Source: an uncultured Granulosicoccaceae bacterium (lineage in GTDB: Bacteria > Pseudomonadota > Gammaproteobacteria > Granulosicoccales > Granulosicoccaceae). Taken from it: DNA of 64,000 nucleotides. Under the pieces are notes generated by a model, which saw only the letters and a list, made by a program, of their open reading frames with translations, made no database searches and was not told the DNA's origin. The position numbers and the translations under genes were made by a program. The DNA lies in the NCBI GenBank assembly GCA_937981955.1, contig CALJNA010000044.1:1-64000 (forward strand), read 5' to 3'. Position 1 is the stretch's first letter. Every line of letters starts with the position of its first letter. Shown in pieces: positions 47,542 to 55,151 of this stretch.

Positions 47542-48207
47542 TCAACGAACCGGCACTGTGCTATTCAATACGGCCATACCACTAGGCGTCTCAATTTCTG
47601 CACTCAGATAAGCCGCCTCTGCGTCTGTTAGCGACTTCAAATTGACAAGATGGGTGGCCTGCATGCCATCGAGCACTGAGCTCAACCAATCCTTGTAAGG
47701 GTGATGGATTGTCAGGCTAACCAGCCTGCAGCCTAAATCAGACATACCACTTGCGGGGTGTGTACTGGTCTGCCATTGCATGATGTTTGGCACCATGCCA
47801 CCTGCGAGCAATCGGCCGTCTGCCGGAACCGCAAACAACCAATTAAGCCCGTTTCGCGAAAGCGGCGTTACATCACCCAACTCAAATTCTGAGCGCATAC
47901 AAGTATCAGATAGAGAACTATTGTTGACAACCCACGTAAGCAAGCGCGGCTGCACACGAAGGCTTGACTGCACGGCTGGGTCATCCAGCCCGAACCAGCG
48001 TGGCCGAACGGGAGGGGTTGCATCAGGGTTTATTGCAATGACTTCAAGGAACGTATCATCTCCGAGCTGCATAACATGATTATGCGTTCCCATGGTGACG
48101 TGCTCACCACCTTTAGGGATGTCCACCCCGAGTAGTTCATGAACGTAAGCAACACCTTGTGAGAGCGTATGCGCTCCTATGACCAGATGATCAAATCGGG
48201 TAGACAC
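47542..48207 (-). CDS. VOC/glyoxalase-like domain protein
   Basis: DHLVIGAHTLSQGVAYVHELLGVDIPKGGEHVTMGTHNHVMQLGDDTFLEVIAI. Confidence 0.87.
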   Translation of the reverse strand: MSTRFDHLVIGAHTLSQGVAYVHELLGVDIPKGGEHVTMGTHNHVMQLGDDTFLEVIAINPDATPPVRPRWFGLDDPAVQSSLRVQPRLLTWVVNNSSLSDTCMRSEFELGDVTPLSRNGLNWLFAVPADGRLLAGGMVPNIMQWQTSTHPASGMSDLGCRLVSLTIHHPYKDWLSSVLDGMQATHLVNLKSLTDAEAAYLSAEIETPSGMAVLNSTVPVR

Positions 48208-48746
48208 TATTGCGTTTTTGAACTCGGGCTGTTCAGAGCCACTATCGCATCAATTATGCGTTGATCGTCCCATTCACGTGGGCCGATTGCCTCATAGACC
48301 ACTTTGCCTTCCGGACTCACAACAACCGTATGCGGTAAAGCGCGGGCAGACCAATTACCCAACGTTCGAATTTTGTCGCCGATGACGATTGGAAAATCTA
48401 TCTGTAAATCATTATCTGCCAGAAACTTTTCGATTTTCTCAGCGTCTTCACCGATGTTGATTGCCAGCATACCGACATCCTGTTTTTGCAATTTCTCCCA
48501 GGCTTTGTTCAACGATGGCAATTCTTCCAGACAGGGTGCACACCATACTGCCCAGAAATTGATAAGCCAGGTCTTGCCTTTCAATTCTTCAGGATTGTAA
48601 ATCTCGCCTTCCACACCACTGAGGCTAAACGGTGGAACCTCTCTGTCAACCGCCGTAAGCGTTTGATCAAAAGCAGAAACACTTCCGATAAACAATGTGC
48701 TGATCAAACTTGCCGCCATCAGGCAACGCAGACAACGTAGACGCAT
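48207..48746 (-). CDS. TlpA-like thiol:disulfide oxidoreductase
   Basis: Signal peptide; WLINFWAVWCAPCLEELPSLNK (CxxC), ALPHTVVVSPEGKVV (cis-Pro). Confidence 0.93.
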   Translation of the reverse strand: MRLRCLRCLMAASLISTLFIGSVSAFDQTLTAVDREVPPFSLSGVEGEIYNPEELKGKTWLINFWAVWCAPCLEELPSLNKAWEKLQKQDVGMLAINIGEDAEKIEKFLADNDLQIDFPIVIGDKIRTLGNWSARALPHTVVVSPEGKVVYEAIGPREWDDQRIIDAIVALNSPSSKTQ

Positions 48747-49153
48747 TACTTAACCTCTTTTCTATCAACAAAATCCAGCGACGCAGAATTAATGCAGTAA
48801 CGTAAGCCGGTCGGCTGAGGTCCATCGGGAAAAACGTGCCCCAGATGTGCGCCACATGATTGGCATAACACCTCCGTGCGCACCATCCCATGCGACTGAT
48901 CAGTTTCTTCTTCAATATTCTCTGCTGCGGCAGGTTGAAAGAAGCTCGGCCACCCACTGCCGGAGTCATACTTGGCAGAAGAATCGAAAAGCACTTCTTC
49001 GCAGCAGACGCAAACGTATTGACCATCGCCTTTATGGTCATTGTATTTTCCGGTAAACGCAGGCTCGGTGCCTTTGTTACGCGCCACGGCAAATTGCTCA
49101 GCGCTGAGTTTGCGGGCCCAGTCACTGTCAGTCTTATCGGTTTTTCTGCTCAT
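48746..49153 (-). CDS. msrB: Peptide-methionine (R)-S-oxide reductase
   Basis: [54 protein letters not shown]; start ATG 49153. Confidence 0.95.
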
Positions 49154-49255
49154 ATTAATTGCCTCATTTGTGCAATATCGCTTATTGCTCCACAGACTAG
49201 TAGGTTTGACCGTCTGTGCTGGTTGAGTTCCCGGCAACGCCTCGTATAATGAACT

Positions 49256-50148: not shown

Positions 50149-50982
50149 TTACAATGGCTCACTGACTTTTGTGTATGCTCTCGAACTTATCACGGGTCCG
50201 GTTGGCGCTGCACTGGTTGTCCCCCCTGCTGGTTCGACGCTGACCGCGAATGCCGCACCTGATCTGAGTTTTGACAAAGACTCGTCCTGGTCCATATCAA
50301 ATGTTTGCATGGTTCCATTTTCGTAGGGCAGCAATCCAATGGATTCAACACCTTGATTATCCGGCAATACAACCCACAGCTGGTGCGATTGATCGGGTAG
50401 TGCATCGGGCGCGTCGATTGCTATGGCGCGTACTTGGCCATTTTTTTCATCAGCGACAATCGCCCATAGTTGTGTACCATCCTCCGCACTCAATACCGAA
50501 ACAATGGTGTAAGCGTTTGTTGTTCCTATCGTGGTGTCTTTATCATGTATCAGAGTGGTCCATTGCGTGATCAATACAGTTGCCAAAGCAAAACAGGCCA
50601 CCAATGACAAGGCACCGATGGTTTCCCACCATACTAATTTACGCTTCAAGGGTTCCAATATTGAATCGGATTCCCTGTTCTCTCGGGTAGTATCATTAGC
50701 GAGCGTAGTGTCATTGTCACTTGCTAGCATCGCCATATTGGCATGTTCCCGATTAATTCTCGCTTCGATGTTTTTCCAAATACCGGGCGGTAAGGCTTCG
50801 GAGGCATCAGGACTTGCAGCCAGAACGGCATCCAGCGCACCAAACTGTTTTTCCCAATACATGACCAGCTTTTGAGCTTCCGGGTCACTTTTAAGTAACT
50901 TCTCAAATAGTTCACGCTCTGAACCACGCAGCGTTCCCAGTACATACTCCCCTGCCTCAACCAACCACCATTCTTTACTCAT
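50149..50982 (-). CDS. Anti-sigma factor (RskA-like C-terminal domain)
   Basis: N-terminal zinc-less anti-sigma helix region (AGEYVLGTLRGSERELFEKLLKSDPEAQ), one TM, SHQLWVVLPDNQGVESIGLLP; start MSKEWW overlaps the sigma gene stop. Confidence 0.92.
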   Translation of the reverse strand: MSKEWWLVEAGEYVLGTLRGSERELFEKLLKSDPEAQKLVMYWEKQFGALDAVLAASPDASEALPPGIWKNIEARINREHANMAMLASDNDTTLANDTTRENRESDSILEPLKRKLVWWETIGALSLVACFALATVLITQWTTLIHDKDTTIGTTNAYTIVSVLSAEDGTQLWAIVADEKNGQVRAIAIDAPDALPDQSHQLWVVLPDNQGVESIGLLPYENGTMQTFDMDQDESLSKLRSGAAFAVSVEPAGGTTSAAPTGPVISSRAYTKVSEPL

Positions 50983-51541
50983 CGAGACCGTCCAGGCATT
51001 GTCGCAATGCAATCAGACTTCGCCGTATCCAACTCTTTACCGTTCCCAGCGGCGCTCCAGTTTGTTTGCTGAGCTCTTCCTGCGAGTATCCCTCGCAGTA
51101 AGCACGAATAACACACAGACGTGGTTTGGGTTCGAGTGTTTCCAGGCAATGCAACAGCGATGATGCATTATCAGTCATTGTCCATGCGTTAGGACTTTCA
51201 TCAGCGAGCTCCGCAAGCACGTCGTCACCACTCGCCAAATCCAGATCTACTCGCACCTGTTGAGATCTCAGCATATCAATAGCCTGATTTCTGGCAATAC
51301 GGCTCATCCACGTCATGGGGTCCGCCAGTGTGTGGTCGTATTGGTCTGCTCTCTGCCATATCTTCACAAATACATCCTGCAGCGCATCTTGCGCAAGCGT
51401 ATCTACTTTCAACATACGCTTTAATATCCGGTATAGAGGCAAACTACAGCGCTCGTAGAGCGACTTTATCGCTGACTGATCACCAATCGAAGCTGCGTCT
51501 AACAATGAGCGTAGCTCTGTTTTGTCCTGTTTCTCAATCAC
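50975..51541 (-). CDS. ECF RNA polymerase sigma factor
   Basis: DALQDVFVKIWQRADQYD (region 2), MTWMSRIARNQAIDMLRS, VIRAYCEGYSQEELSKQTGAPLGTVKSWIRRSLIALRQCL (region 4). Confidence 0.95.
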   Translation of the reverse strand: MIEKQDKTELRSLLDAASIGDQSAIKSLYERCSLPLYRILKRMLKVDTLAQDALQDVFVKIWQRADQYDHTLADPMTWMSRIARNQAIDMLRSQQVRVDLDLASGDDVLAELADESPNAWTMTDNASSLLHCLETLEPKPRLCVIRAYCEGYSQEELSKQTGAPLGTVKSWIRRSLIALRQCLDGLDE

Positions 51542-51696
51542 TCGCTTCTTATTCCTGCTGCCTTATATATCGAATCTGTCGCATAGATCTGACTGATCAA
51601 AGGAGAGTAGTTTAATACGGTCCGAAAAATTTCCACTAATTTTTTCGATTTGCATCTTTTTTGTCTGACCTATCGTACCCGCTACTGCCACCGAAG

Positions 51697-51754
51697 GTAC
51701 GTAGTTTTTATATCCCTTTAATGCATCTCAGCTCTGACCCTGTTCGTACGTAGT
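51697..51754 (+). repeat. Direct repeat GTACGTAGT (two copies, 49 bp apart) in the sigma/CHRD intergenic region
   Basis: GTACGTAGT at 51697-51705 and 51746-51754; TCTGACC also occurs upstream of each (51664-51670, 51733-51739). Confidence 0.6.
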
Positions 51755-51853
51755 AATAAGGGCCTGTTCTTTCAAACGTTTCGAAGCACTATGAACATGT
51801 CAGAACTAAATTTGAGCAGCCTTACTAGAAACTGCGTTATTGGAGATCACGCT

Positions 51854-52669
51854 ATGAAAATCATTTTTAAAACAACAGTTACTTCCGCTATTACGCTCGC
51901 GGCTGGTATCACACTCGCCACAGAGGCCTACGCTGGACACACCAATGCGTTATTGATTGCTGAGATGGATGGTCGTGAGGAAGTTGGCGATGACCCAGCA
52001 CAACGCTTGGCTGGCGACCCCAATGGAAAAGGCATTGGTTATGTCTTCGGAATCGATGGCGATGACACCACACTCTGCTATTCAATGACCGTGAATAAAA
52101 TTCAGTTGGTCCCTGTTGGAGAAGGCATGGCAGCCCATATTCACGAAGGCCAGCGTGATACGAACGGACCAGTCGTTGCCGTATTGGCGGGCCCGGAAGA
52201 TGGTAACGCCGCTGATTGCCTCACTGAAGGTGAAACTGGAAAATTTCCAACCGGGGAAACAGGAATTGTTCAACGCATTCTAAATAACCCCGCTAACTTT
52301 TATATCAACATTCATAACCCAGAGTATCCAGCTGGTGCTATTCGGGGAAATTTAAGCAATACTCTGATGGAAGATGGTCATGAGCATGACCATGGCGATG
52401 AAAGTTCACCAAGTATTCCAGAGAACGCTTCAGTCAGGGTGTATTCACGATCTGCGGTTGAAATTTTCTGGGACCGATCCTCGGATGATGGCCAAGTGTT
52501 GATGTACGAAGTGTATCGTGACGATGTGCTTGTTGCCAGCGTCGAGGGCAATAGTTTTTTCGACGACACACTGAACGGCGGTACCACTTACCGTTACGAA
52601 ATTGTGGCAGTGGACAATGACAATCAACGTTCAGCTCGGTCTGCCGCAGTTGATGCCACAACATTCTAG
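51854..52669 (+). CDS. Secreted CHRD-domain protein with His-rich linker and C-terminal fibronectin type III-like domain
   Basis: Signal peptide from ATG 51854; HTNALLIAEMDGREEVGDDP...AAHIHEGQRDTNGPVVAVL...NFYINIHNPEYPAGAIRGNLS; linker DGHEHDHGDE; VEIFWDRSSDDGQVLMYEVYRDDVLVA. Confidence 0.88.
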   Translation: MKIIFKTTVTSAITLAAGITLATEAYAGHTNALLIAEMDGREEVGDDPAQRLAGDPNGKGIGYVFGIDGDDTTLCYSMTVNKIQLVPVGEGMAAHIHEGQRDTNGPVVAVLAGPEDGNAADCLTEGETGKFPTGETGIVQRILNNPANFYINIHNPEYPAGAIRGNLSNTLMEDGHEHDHGDESSPSIPENASVRVYSRSAVEIFWDRSSDDGQVLMYEVYRDDVLVASVEGNSFFDDTLNGGTTYRYEIVAVDNDNQRSARSAAVDATTF

Positions 52670-52740
52670 CGTTTCATTCAATTTGTTAAACACAAGCCCA
52701 AACCAACAATCACATTTAATATCTGTAGGAACTTAAAACT

Positions 52741-53364
52741 ATGAAAAACCGATATGCCAAGCCTCTACAACAAGGCTTAAGGCGTTTGTCTTTACTGCTA
52801 CTACTCACTCCGTTTTTAGCCCATGCGGCCGATCATCAGGAGGCACCTCGTGCCAGCGCTCAGTTATCAGCAGATATTGGTGATTACTACGCCTGGCACA
52901 GCGATTCTCAGCTTAATTTGATACTCACCTTCGGCACGTTTAACGCACCCGGAATGCCTGCAAGTTACGATTCCAATCTACTTTATGGATTTCACTTTGA
53001 TACGTCGGAAACGGCTGATGGAGAGTCTGATATGGATCTCTACGTTCGGTTCGCTCAAGACGATCAAGGTGCTTGGGGGTTTCGCGTATCAGATTCGTCT
53101 GACAATGCATTGATACAAGGCGCTGTGGAGACCGTTCTAGCCAATAATGATATATCCGCTTGGGCTGGATTAGCCGATGATCCGTTCTTCTTCGATCAGA
53201 CAGGATTCGTTTCAACCGTATCTACAGGGACCATTTCGTTCGACCCCGCAAGAGACGACGTTGCCGGGCTGAACATAACAGCAATAGTTATTCAGGTGCC
53301 GCTTGACTCAGTTGTTGCTTCTGGCAGTTCACTACAAACATGGGCCACAACGGCTTCACAGTGA
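52741..53364 (+). CDS. Exported DUF4331-like protein, N-terminal-half homologue
   Basis: Signal peptide; DHQEAPRASAQLSADIGDYYAWHSDSQLNLILTFGTFNAP resembles the SSHREAP..D.TDLYAF start of DUF4331 proteins. Confidence 0.7.
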   Translation: MKNRYAKPLQQGLRRLSLLLLLTPFLAHAADHQEAPRASAQLSADIGDYYAWHSDSQLNLILTFGTFNAPGMPASYDSNLLYGFHFDTSETADGESDMDLYVRFAQDDQGAWGFRVSDSSDNALIQGAVETVLANNDISAWAGLADDPFFFDQTGFVSTVSTGTISFDPARDDVAGLNITAIVIQVPLDSVVASGSSLQTWATTASQ

Positions 53365-53372
53365 GGAAAAAC

Positions 53373-53972
53373 ATGAATAATTTACTCAAAAAAAGTCTGG
53401 GTACGGCCGTGATATCAACACTTTTGCTTACAGCTTGCAGCAGTAGCGACGATGATACTACGACCACAGCCAGTTTTGATTTCGCATCTGCTGACATCGC
53501 GTCATACACGCGCATAGATCGAATGGGGATGCCTGCTATAGCAACTGCATTGATCAGCAGTAAAGATGCCTACAACAATGCGAACCCCACAAATGACAGT
53601 GCCGGTGAGTTTGTACCCGAAATCCTTGGCAGTCTTCAAACCCTTCACGGAGCACTGGATGGGCAACTGACTCAACTTGGTCTAACCCCTTGCACTGTGG
53701 TTGGGGATGGCACCGGGACCTGTGCGCAGTTTGCGGTGCCCTTGATATTGCCAGACACGCTTAAAATCGATACGGCTGCCTCAAGCGGCTTTCCGAATGG
53801 AAGAATGCTTAGCGACCCTGTTATCGACGTAACTTTGGCTGTGGCATTGTTAGAGCTAACGGGAGATCCAGCGCCGCATGCACCAGACGCCTTGGTTGGT
53901 GTACTGAACCCACCAGCGAATGACAAAGCATTCGGTGATGCGTTTCCGTTCTTGGCTACGCCCCACCAATAA
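53373..53972 (+). CDS. DUF4331-like lipoprotein, C-terminal-half homologue
   Basis: ATG 53373 with lipobox LLLTACSSSDDD; RIDRMGMPAIATALISSKDAYNNANPTND and SGFPNGRMLSDPVIDVTLAVALL...GDAFPFLATPHQ resemble the DUF4331 C-terminal half. Confidence 0.72.
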   Translation: MNNLLKKSLGTAVISTLLLTACSSSDDDTTTTASFDFASADIASYTRIDRMGMPAIATALISSKDAYNNANPTNDSAGEFVPEILGSLQTLHGALDGQLTQLGLTPCTVVGDGTGTCAQFAVPLILPDTLKIDTAASSGFPNGRMLSDPVIDVTLAVALLELTGDPAPHAPDALVGVLNPPANDKAFGDAFPFLATPHQ

Positions 53973-53974
53973 CG

Positions 53975-54985
53975 ATGGCAATGCAGTTTGAAAAACAAAC
54001 AACAGTATGGAAACTGTTGTTTGTTGTGGCGATAATGGGTTCAGCAAGCTATTTTGCTGGACGCGTTCATCACGATAGAAGTCATGTTCCCGGCCAGCCC
54101 AGCCACACATACATGAATGAATTGGCTAGCGTCAACTCACGAGTTCAGTCACTTAGCACATTCATTAGCAACAATGCCCACTCTTGGCCACACTTTGAAC
54201 AGCTTGCACTCGCGTATTTGGACCGTGCACGCTTAAGCGGTGAATTCACAGACTATCAAAAAGCAGATAATGCTATTCAGCAGGCGTTTGACATCAGTGG
54301 AACCCATGCTGGTCCGTATTTAACACGTGCATACATTCATCTTGCGCTACATCGAACAGACTCTGCGTTAAACGACTTGAATCAAGTCAAGAATATGCTA
54401 CTCGTCCAACGCGAGACCGCATTGGCCGTAGAAGGATTAGTTGGAGACGCCCTGATACAGTTGGGCGAAACAGAGGCAGCGTTGGAGAAATTTGAACTAA
54501 CTGAAAAACAGAATCCTTCATTTAAAACTGCAGCAAGGCTATCTCAAGCTCTGGCGCTAAACGGGAACTACCCTCTGGCCGGGCACTGGCTCAGTATTGG
54601 AGAAAAACGAGTTTCAAGCCAATCGGCTTACCTTAGCGCGTGGCTGGAACTACAACACGGCATACTCGCACTTGAACAAGATCTGTTAGACGAGGCATAC
54701 GAACATTTCAGCAAGGCCGATCAGACTTTCCCTGGATACTGGCTGATTGAGGAGCATCTTGCTGAAGTGGATGCATTATCAGGAAGAACTGCATTAGCGG
54801 AAGATCGGTACAGAGCAATTGTTGATCGAGCGCCAATACCACAGATGAAATTAGCACTCGCCGATGTTCTGGATTCCCGTGATAGCGCGGGTAATCGCAA
54901 TGAAGTCGAGTTATTGCGACGTCAGGCCGATCAACAATTTACGATTATTCGTGCAGTCTATCCTGCGCTTACTTCCGCGCATTGA
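53975..54985 (+). CDS. Membrane-anchored TPR protein
   Basis: N-terminal TM (LLFVVAIMGSASYFAG) then TPR-like helices; starts 3 nt after the preceding stop. Confidence 0.82.
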   Translation: MAMQFEKQTTVWKLLFVVAIMGSASYFAGRVHHDRSHVPGQPSHTYMNELASVNSRVQSLSTFISNNAHSWPHFEQLALAYLDRARLSGEFTDYQKADNAIQQAFDISGTHAGPYLTRAYIHLALHRTDSALNDLNQVKNMLLVQRETALAVEGLVGDALIQLGETEAALEKFELTEKQNPSFKTAARLSQALALNGNYPLAGHWLSIGEKRVSSQSAYLSAWLELQHGILALEQDLLDEAYEHFSKADQTFPGYWLIEEHLAEVDALSGRTALAEDRYRAIVDRAPIPQMKLALADVLDSRDSAGNRNEVELLRRQADQQFTIIRAVYPALTSAH

Positions 54986-55151
54986 AAACCGAGGAACCTG
55001 GCCCGCGGCAAAAGGCATGTCGCTTTTTTGCTGAGTTCGTCACAACGGTCTACGTCTGATCTCTCAAAAACACAGGATACGCAGTCATTGGTCCACTCGT
55101 TGCAAAACTCCATTCAGGAAGAACAAATGCAACATGACCTGGTAAAAGCCG

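Follow-up and report, generated by a model that had tools for sequence, protein, structure and literature searches.

What might an extracytoplasmic function (ECF) sigma factor and its anti-sigma factor be controlling when the genes facing them encode a compact set of exported and membrane-anchored proteins, two of which look like halves of a single DUF4331 protein? The question is raised by a locus in an uncultured Granulosicoccaceae bacterium, in a stretch of 64,000 nucleotides (contig CALJNA010000044.1, positions 1 to 64,000) that was analyzed whole and that we call the window. It comes from a metagenome-assembled genome (MAG) of 4.34 Mb in 177 contigs, which is 76.7% complete. The best explanation of the whole, and one we consider rather probable, is that the locus is a regulon unit of the SigK/RskA type for exported DUF4331 proteins, which may serve in metal handling.

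The regulatory pair lies on the minus strand. The sigma factor gene (50975..51541) encodes regions 2 and 4 (Sigma70_r2, E 1e-15; r4_2, 1e-11) and overlaps by 8 nt (ATGAGTAA) the gene for a membrane anti-sigma factor of the RskA_C type (50149..50982; PF10099, E 1e-16), whose ATG at 50982 runs into the sigma stop codon. An ECF sigma factor overlapping or adjoining an RskA_C anti-sigma factor is the arrangement that defines the SigK/RskA kind. The best solved relative of the sigma factor is SigK of Mycobacterium tuberculosis (4nqw, E 2e-19), and Rhodobacter RpoE, the partner of ChrR, is nearly as close (2q1z, E 9e-19). Both cysteine positions of SigK are kept, as RLC/RQC and RQCLD/RNCLD in the alignment to 4nqw (region 4; near the C terminus).

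Facing this pair on the plus strand are four genes. The first (51854..52669) encodes a secreted protein with a CHRD domain (PF07452, E 4e-18), a His-rich linker and a weak Fn3-like match. It is followed by D1 (52741..53364), the exported N-terminal half of a DUF4331 protein; D2 (53373..53972), the C-terminal half, a lipoprotein; and a TPR protein with an N-terminal membrane anchor (53975..54985; TPR_19, E 4e-6). The gaps between them are 71, 8 and 2 nt, given a D2 start at ATG 53373, which has an AGGA box upstream. For CHRD, ATG 51854 is more likely to be the start than 51791 (the longest open reading frame), because GGAG lies about 10 nt upstream of it and a predicted signal peptide follows directly; the sigma–CHRD gap is therefore about 310 nt. 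Gene calls and Pfam thus bear out the original prediction, made from the sequence letters, in its six genes, its overlap and its three gaps, and the spacing of about 310 bp that it gave agrees with the ATG 51854 start.

It is in this gap that the case for regulation begins. Two exact matches to TGCATCT-N16-CGTA, candidate ECF promoter sites, sit there on the plus strand, one at 51651..51677 and one nearer the gene at 51722..51748. The entire MAG holds five exact copies, against about two expected by an estimate from simple base counting; the other three are inside or behind open reading frames. The same motif precedes CHRD in two relatives (G015 and G011) and D1 in two others (G003 and G018). 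A form that allows A or T at position 5 precedes D1 in G002 and G020 and the long, single-gene form of DUF4331 at four loci (L135, L141, L144 and L145), and forms with one mismatch occur at four more (L129, L131, L137 and L140). In nine genomes CHRD orthologues lie at a distance from the sigma locus, and seven of the nine still have the motif directly upstream. More broadly, ATCY-N16/17-CGTA is found upstream of 35 of 77 D1 genes (shuffled sequences gave a mean of 0.63 and a maximum of 3, control dyads none), and ATCC-N16-CGTA is the commonest of all enumerated 4+4 dyads before D1 (27 of the 77 sequences). The dyad holds separately in Granulosicoccaceae, Sphingomonadales and Myxococcota. Several myxobacterial D1 promoters read GTGATCC-N16-CGTA, which matches the RpoE–ChrR consensus: the experimentally supported promoter of Pseudomonas syringae RpoE–ChrR is TGATCC-N16-CGTA (PMC5507510), and a Shewanella promoter of that type has a layout close to the DUF4331-associated motif (PMC4336711). 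Because the bipartite promoter recurs here, in relatives and at unlinked CHRD genes, and because it resembles that of RpoE–ChrR, the sigma factor very probably drives CHRD-D1-D2-TPR. Judged from sequence, the regulatory part of our explanation, taken alone, deserves considerable confidence, and the control of the plus-strand genes that had originally been inferred is well supported by conservation and the shared motif. No obvious further target that would enlarge the regulon within the MAG emerges from the remaining exact matches to TGCATCT-N16-CGTA or TGCAACT-N16-CGTA, most of which lie inside or behind open reading frames.

How far does the arrangement extend beyond this one genome? A D2 profile gathered 80 named loci, 81 with the window, and in 60 of the 81 D1, D2 and TPR are contiguous. 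These come from Granulosicoccaceae, Sphingomonadales (Erythrobacter, Croceicoccus, Sphingopyxis, Qipengyuania and others), Phenylobacterium, Myxococcota (Enhygromyxa and MAGs), Gemmatimonadota and Eisenbacteria. The absence of conservation that would have counted against the proposal was thus not what we found. TPR is directly 3' of D2 in most relatives, and a HupE_UreJ_2 gene follows TPR in 27 of the 81 loci. An ECF sigma gene lies within 2.5 kb upstream of 25 of the 71 D1 genes that have at least 2.5 kb of upstream sequence, mostly divergent at 27–240 bp; at several other D1 loci a sigma–anti-sigma pair lies 3–4 kb downstream in the same direction. In the sigma factor tree, the window protein groups with the sigma factors that accompany split DUF4331 in G003 and G018 (100/97); the one accompanying long DUF4331 in G002 adjoins this group (100/99), and several separate ECF lineages adjoin DUF4331. 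A single RskA_C gene and a single DUF4331 locus occur in the MAG, and their adjacency suggests more than a chance neighborhood. RskA is also present in 18 of 20 Granulosicoccaceae genomes with DUF4331 and in 6 of 28 without (Fisher p 5e-6, the genomes not being independent). The lack of a nearby sigma gene at most D1 loci of Myxococcota might suggest that the sigma pair acts on other genes and has no connection with the plus-strand operon. This is very improbable, given that the association turns up in several ECF lineages and gene orders and that the promoter is shared, even by unlinked CHRD genes.

The long form of DUF4331 keeps similar company. In Granulosicoccaceae it adjoins sigma–RskA, and in several genomes the anti-sigma gene is followed by DUF4198 and HupE/UreJ. 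In other Gammaproteobacteria (L129–L131) DUF4331-TPR-HupE/UreJ is divergent from an ECF sigma gene with a ChrR-cupin partner. Plasmids of Marinobacter, Comamonadaceae, Lichenicola and Streptomyces carry DUF4331, then TPR or a hypothetical gene, then HupE/UreJ or a 'nickel transporter', and a Croceicoccus marinus plasmid has the order DUF4331-DUF4331-hypothetical-HupE/UreJ-sigma-antisigma. This plasmid cluster, annotated and undescribed, resembles the window in having DUF4331 followed by a TPR or hypothetical gene; most of its members have the single-gene form, whereas the window has the split form together with CHRD, and HupE/UreJ is absent from its locus. In one relative (L038/L144, G015 contig C65) long DUF4331 accompanies sigma-RskA-DUF4198-HupE/UreJ, and about 10 kb away is a split CHRD-D1-D2-TPR unit without a sigma gene of its own; each of the two units has the same promoter, so one sigma factor may serve both. 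Two Phenylobacterium MAGs (L083, 7986–13575; L084, 8780–15000) each have a pair of neighboring, convergent D1-D2-TPR operons, of which the second has clearly diverged from the first. On a Streptomyces anulatus plasmid (L250, NZ_CP109126.1) a second DUF4331, a sortase and a fasciclin protein come after DUF4331-TPR-nickel transporter; fasciclin is FAS1, the family targeted by SigK in mycobacteria, here near DUF4331 in another phylum. On plasmids of Sulfitobacter and Paracoccus (L248 and L251) a lone long DUF4331 is flanked on one side by an A24 prepilin peptidase and on the other by a type II secretion cluster with GspK/GspJ. More divergent DUF4331 proteins in G132 (L047 and L048) have no sigma neighborhood.

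CHRD travels less widely. It adjoins the DUF4331 unit only in the window, G011, G015 and G047, all Granulosicoccaceae, and was ruled out as part of the conserved core, which is DUF4331-TPR(-HupE/UreJ) with CHRD as an add-on. The CHRD, split DUF4331 and TPR locus of the original prediction therefore stands in its DUF4331-TPR portion and, for CHRD, in some Granulosicoccaceae. The His-rich linker follows the CHRD domain in all four linked proteins. Our literature search found no paper on CHRD with sigma factors and, among 5.39 million papers, none naming DUF4331, a family that occurs in Pseudomonadota, Myxococcota, Gemmatimonadota, Actinomycetota, Bacteroidota and Nostoc.

Are D1 and D2 really one protein in two pieces? 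D1 matches the DUF4331 profile (PF14224) at positions 2–241 (60.8 bits, E 2e-16, with a gap at about 85–146) and D2 at 242–421 (52.1 bits, E 8e-14). Both scores exceed the Pfam gathering cut-off of 27 bits and jointly they span the profile, so the pair amounts to a single DUF4331 divided at 241/242. The halves carry separate export signals. D1 has a signal peptide with a predicted end at AHA|ADH, D2 the lipobox LLTAC, a pattern found in 70 of 84 relatives, part of the remainder being truncated. A frameshift or assembly error was ruled out, as separately exported halves, each with its own start, are conserved across phyla; the contiguity of D1-D2-TPR over that range means the split is old and real. 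The AlphaFold model of D1 is mostly beta (predicted local distance difference test, pLDDT, 87.6). Its confidence is low for the N-terminal residues, as would be expected of a flexible end, though this is no proof of one. The D2 model reaches a pLDDT of only 75.

That N-terminal end of D1 offers a clue to function. A peptide with Xaa-Xaa-His at its free N terminus forms the amino-terminal Cu(II)- and Ni(II)-binding (ATCUN) motif. Directly after the predicted cut, D1 reads Ala-Asp-His (codons at 52828..52836, plus strand), and xDH, with His as third residue, stands there in 80 of 80 split D1 proteins, preceded by Ala at −1 in 75 of the 80; in all of them cleavage is predicted only. The long DUF4331 proteins mostly have A|SSHREAP or A|SSHAEAP after the predicted cut, in Streptomyces and Paracoccus too. 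Among the neighbors with a link to metal are HupE/UreJ and the 'nickel transporter', and DUF4198 is recurrent; HupE/UreJ proteins include nickel and cobalt transporters (PMC7689651). The earlier view of the effectors as all of unknown role therefore gives way to some leads: a superoxide dismutase (SOD)-like fold in CHRD, a candidate metal-binding N terminus in DUF4331 and metal-transporter neighbors. It is on the ATCUN-like N terminus, the HupE/UreJ and DUF4198 neighbors and the His-rich linker of CHRD that we base the proposal of metal handling in the envelope. From these sequence features we tentatively suggest a DUF4331 unit that uses Xaa-Xaa-His to bind Cu(II) or Ni(II) and acts with a HupE/UreJ-type transporter, possibly during oxidative stress, which would be the likeliest context. 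The sole lead to a possible stress trigger is the ChrR-type partner of some relatives and the likeness of their promoter to that of the singlet-oxygen system RpoE–ChrR.

Several observations weigh against this account, in its regulatory or its metal part. The motif was first spotted by eye in the upstream regions of a few relatives and then tested elsewhere, and the tested sequences are related, so the counts overstate their independence. No matching site lies before the window's own sigma gene, and autoregulation is therefore not supported here (in four relatives TGCCTCT-N16-CGTA does occur, 36 nt before the sigma gene). An adjacent sigma gene is missing from most D1 loci of Myxococcota. The sole HupE_UreJ_2 gene found in the MAG is on another contig. 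The invariant histidine of D1 could be structural rather than part of an ATCUN site. Finally, D1 gave no PDB sequence match and no convincing fold match (best Foldseek E 0.05), and searches of PDB sequences and folds gave no solved relative or confident match for D2.

Two other functions might be served by the same regulation. One, which we regard as unlikely, is that the sigma-controlled operon gives extracellular antioxidant or photo-oxidative protection, with an SOD-like CHRD, a sacrificial or structural DUF4331 and metal binding that is incidental or absent. The ECF and ChrR-cupin pairs of some relatives speak for it, as do the myxobacterial GTGATCC-N16-CGTA promoters, with their match to the consensus of the singlet-oxygen and peroxide system RpoE–ChrR (PMC5507510, PMC4336711), and CHRD does have the SOD-like fold; chordin-type CHRD, however, lacks the metal ligands of SOD (PMC13382577), the conserved partner is of a transporter family and not an oxidoreductase, and no redox cofactor motif was seen. 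Somewhat less likely still is a module for surface assembly or adhesion under an envelope-stress ECF sigma factor, in which a scaffold lipoprotein would work with an exported beta protein. The mostly beta D1 model, the Fn3 match in the CHRD protein, the TPR scaffold and the lipoprotein partner would all suit such a module, as would the sortase and fasciclin neighbors in Streptomyces and GspK/GspJ beside DUF4331 in Sulfitobacter and Paracoccus. It leaves the recurrent HupE/UreJ and DUF4198 partners unexplained, however, and no repeat or ligand-binding domain was recognized in DUF4331.

The locus, in our preferred explanation a SigK/RskA-type unit that may serve in metal handling, has two known systems among its closest kin. 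RskA both inhibits and activates SigK in mycobacteria and Yersinia, in the cassette mpt83-sigK-rskA (M. tuberculosis, Yersinia enterocolitica; PMC7509140). The window shares with it a SigK-like ECF sigma factor with both cysteine positions, an RskA-type anti-sigma factor, and nearby target genes, for exported proteins and lipoproteins, that follow a conserved promoter. The targets differ, being DUF4331 halves, CHRD and TPR instead of FAS1, and the window promoter is TGCATCT-N16-CGTA; by Pfam there is no FAS1 gene in the window operon, those of the MAG being on other contigs. The two are joined in one bacterial family by G011, which has an MPT83-like FAS1-DUF4198-HupE/UreJ unit beside sigma–RskA behind TGCATCC-N16-CGTA (L242, 30–2850) and, on another contig, a split DUF4331 unit with the TGCATCT form. 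With RpoE–ChrR (ECF11; PMC5507510, PMC4336711) the shared features are the near-identical promoter layout, TGATCC-N16-CGTA, and the ECF and ChrR-cupin pair of some DUF4331 relatives; in contrast, the window has no cupin-type ChrR, its anti-sigma factor being RskA_C. In the regulon tables that we read in those two papers, DUF4331 was not found.

How might the whole work? RskA, anchored in the inner membrane, would hold the sigma factor until a signal releases it to read TGCATCT-N16-CGTA between the sigma and CHRD genes. CHRD-D1-D2-TPR would then be transcribed as one unit, which may end at a terminator-like hairpin with T6 (55005..55030, plus strand; a consensus match only, in numbers not above those in shuffled sequence). 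D1 would leave by its Sec signal peptide, D2 as a lipoprotein and TPR as a membrane-anchored scaffold. The two halves of the DUF4331 architecture would probably reassemble outside the cytoplasmic membrane, and the unit, with a HupE/UreJ-type transporter, would handle copper or nickel in the envelope. A bolder generalization, which we offer as doubtful, is that DUF4331 is a widespread secreted Cu/Ni-binding family with an ATCUN N terminus, working with TPR and a dedicated HupE/UreJ-type transporter, controlled by several ECF lineages through (T)(G)ATCY-N16-CGTA, and in its split form exported as separate halves that reassemble on the lipid anchor. Beyond the hairpin lies an apparently unrelated GAF-histidine kinase gene. 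On the other side, about 1 kb from the anti-sigma gene, are genes for a TlpA-like thioredoxin and methionine sulfoxide reductase B (SelR) (48207–49237), with no sign of membership in the unit.

The locus is a variant of the ECF/anti-sigma-controlled exported-protein cassette and not a categorically new system. The SigK/RskA kind, so far associated with FAS1 antigens, gains with this locus a further class of exported targets. DUF4331 now has a conserved operon, with TPR and HupE/UreJ, and a candidate regulator whose promoter signature lends itself to genome-wide searches; it also has a testable biochemical guess, copper or nickel at the mature N terminus. The exported set is widely conserved yet essentially undescribed, and its task may be the handling of copper or nickel beyond the cell membrane.

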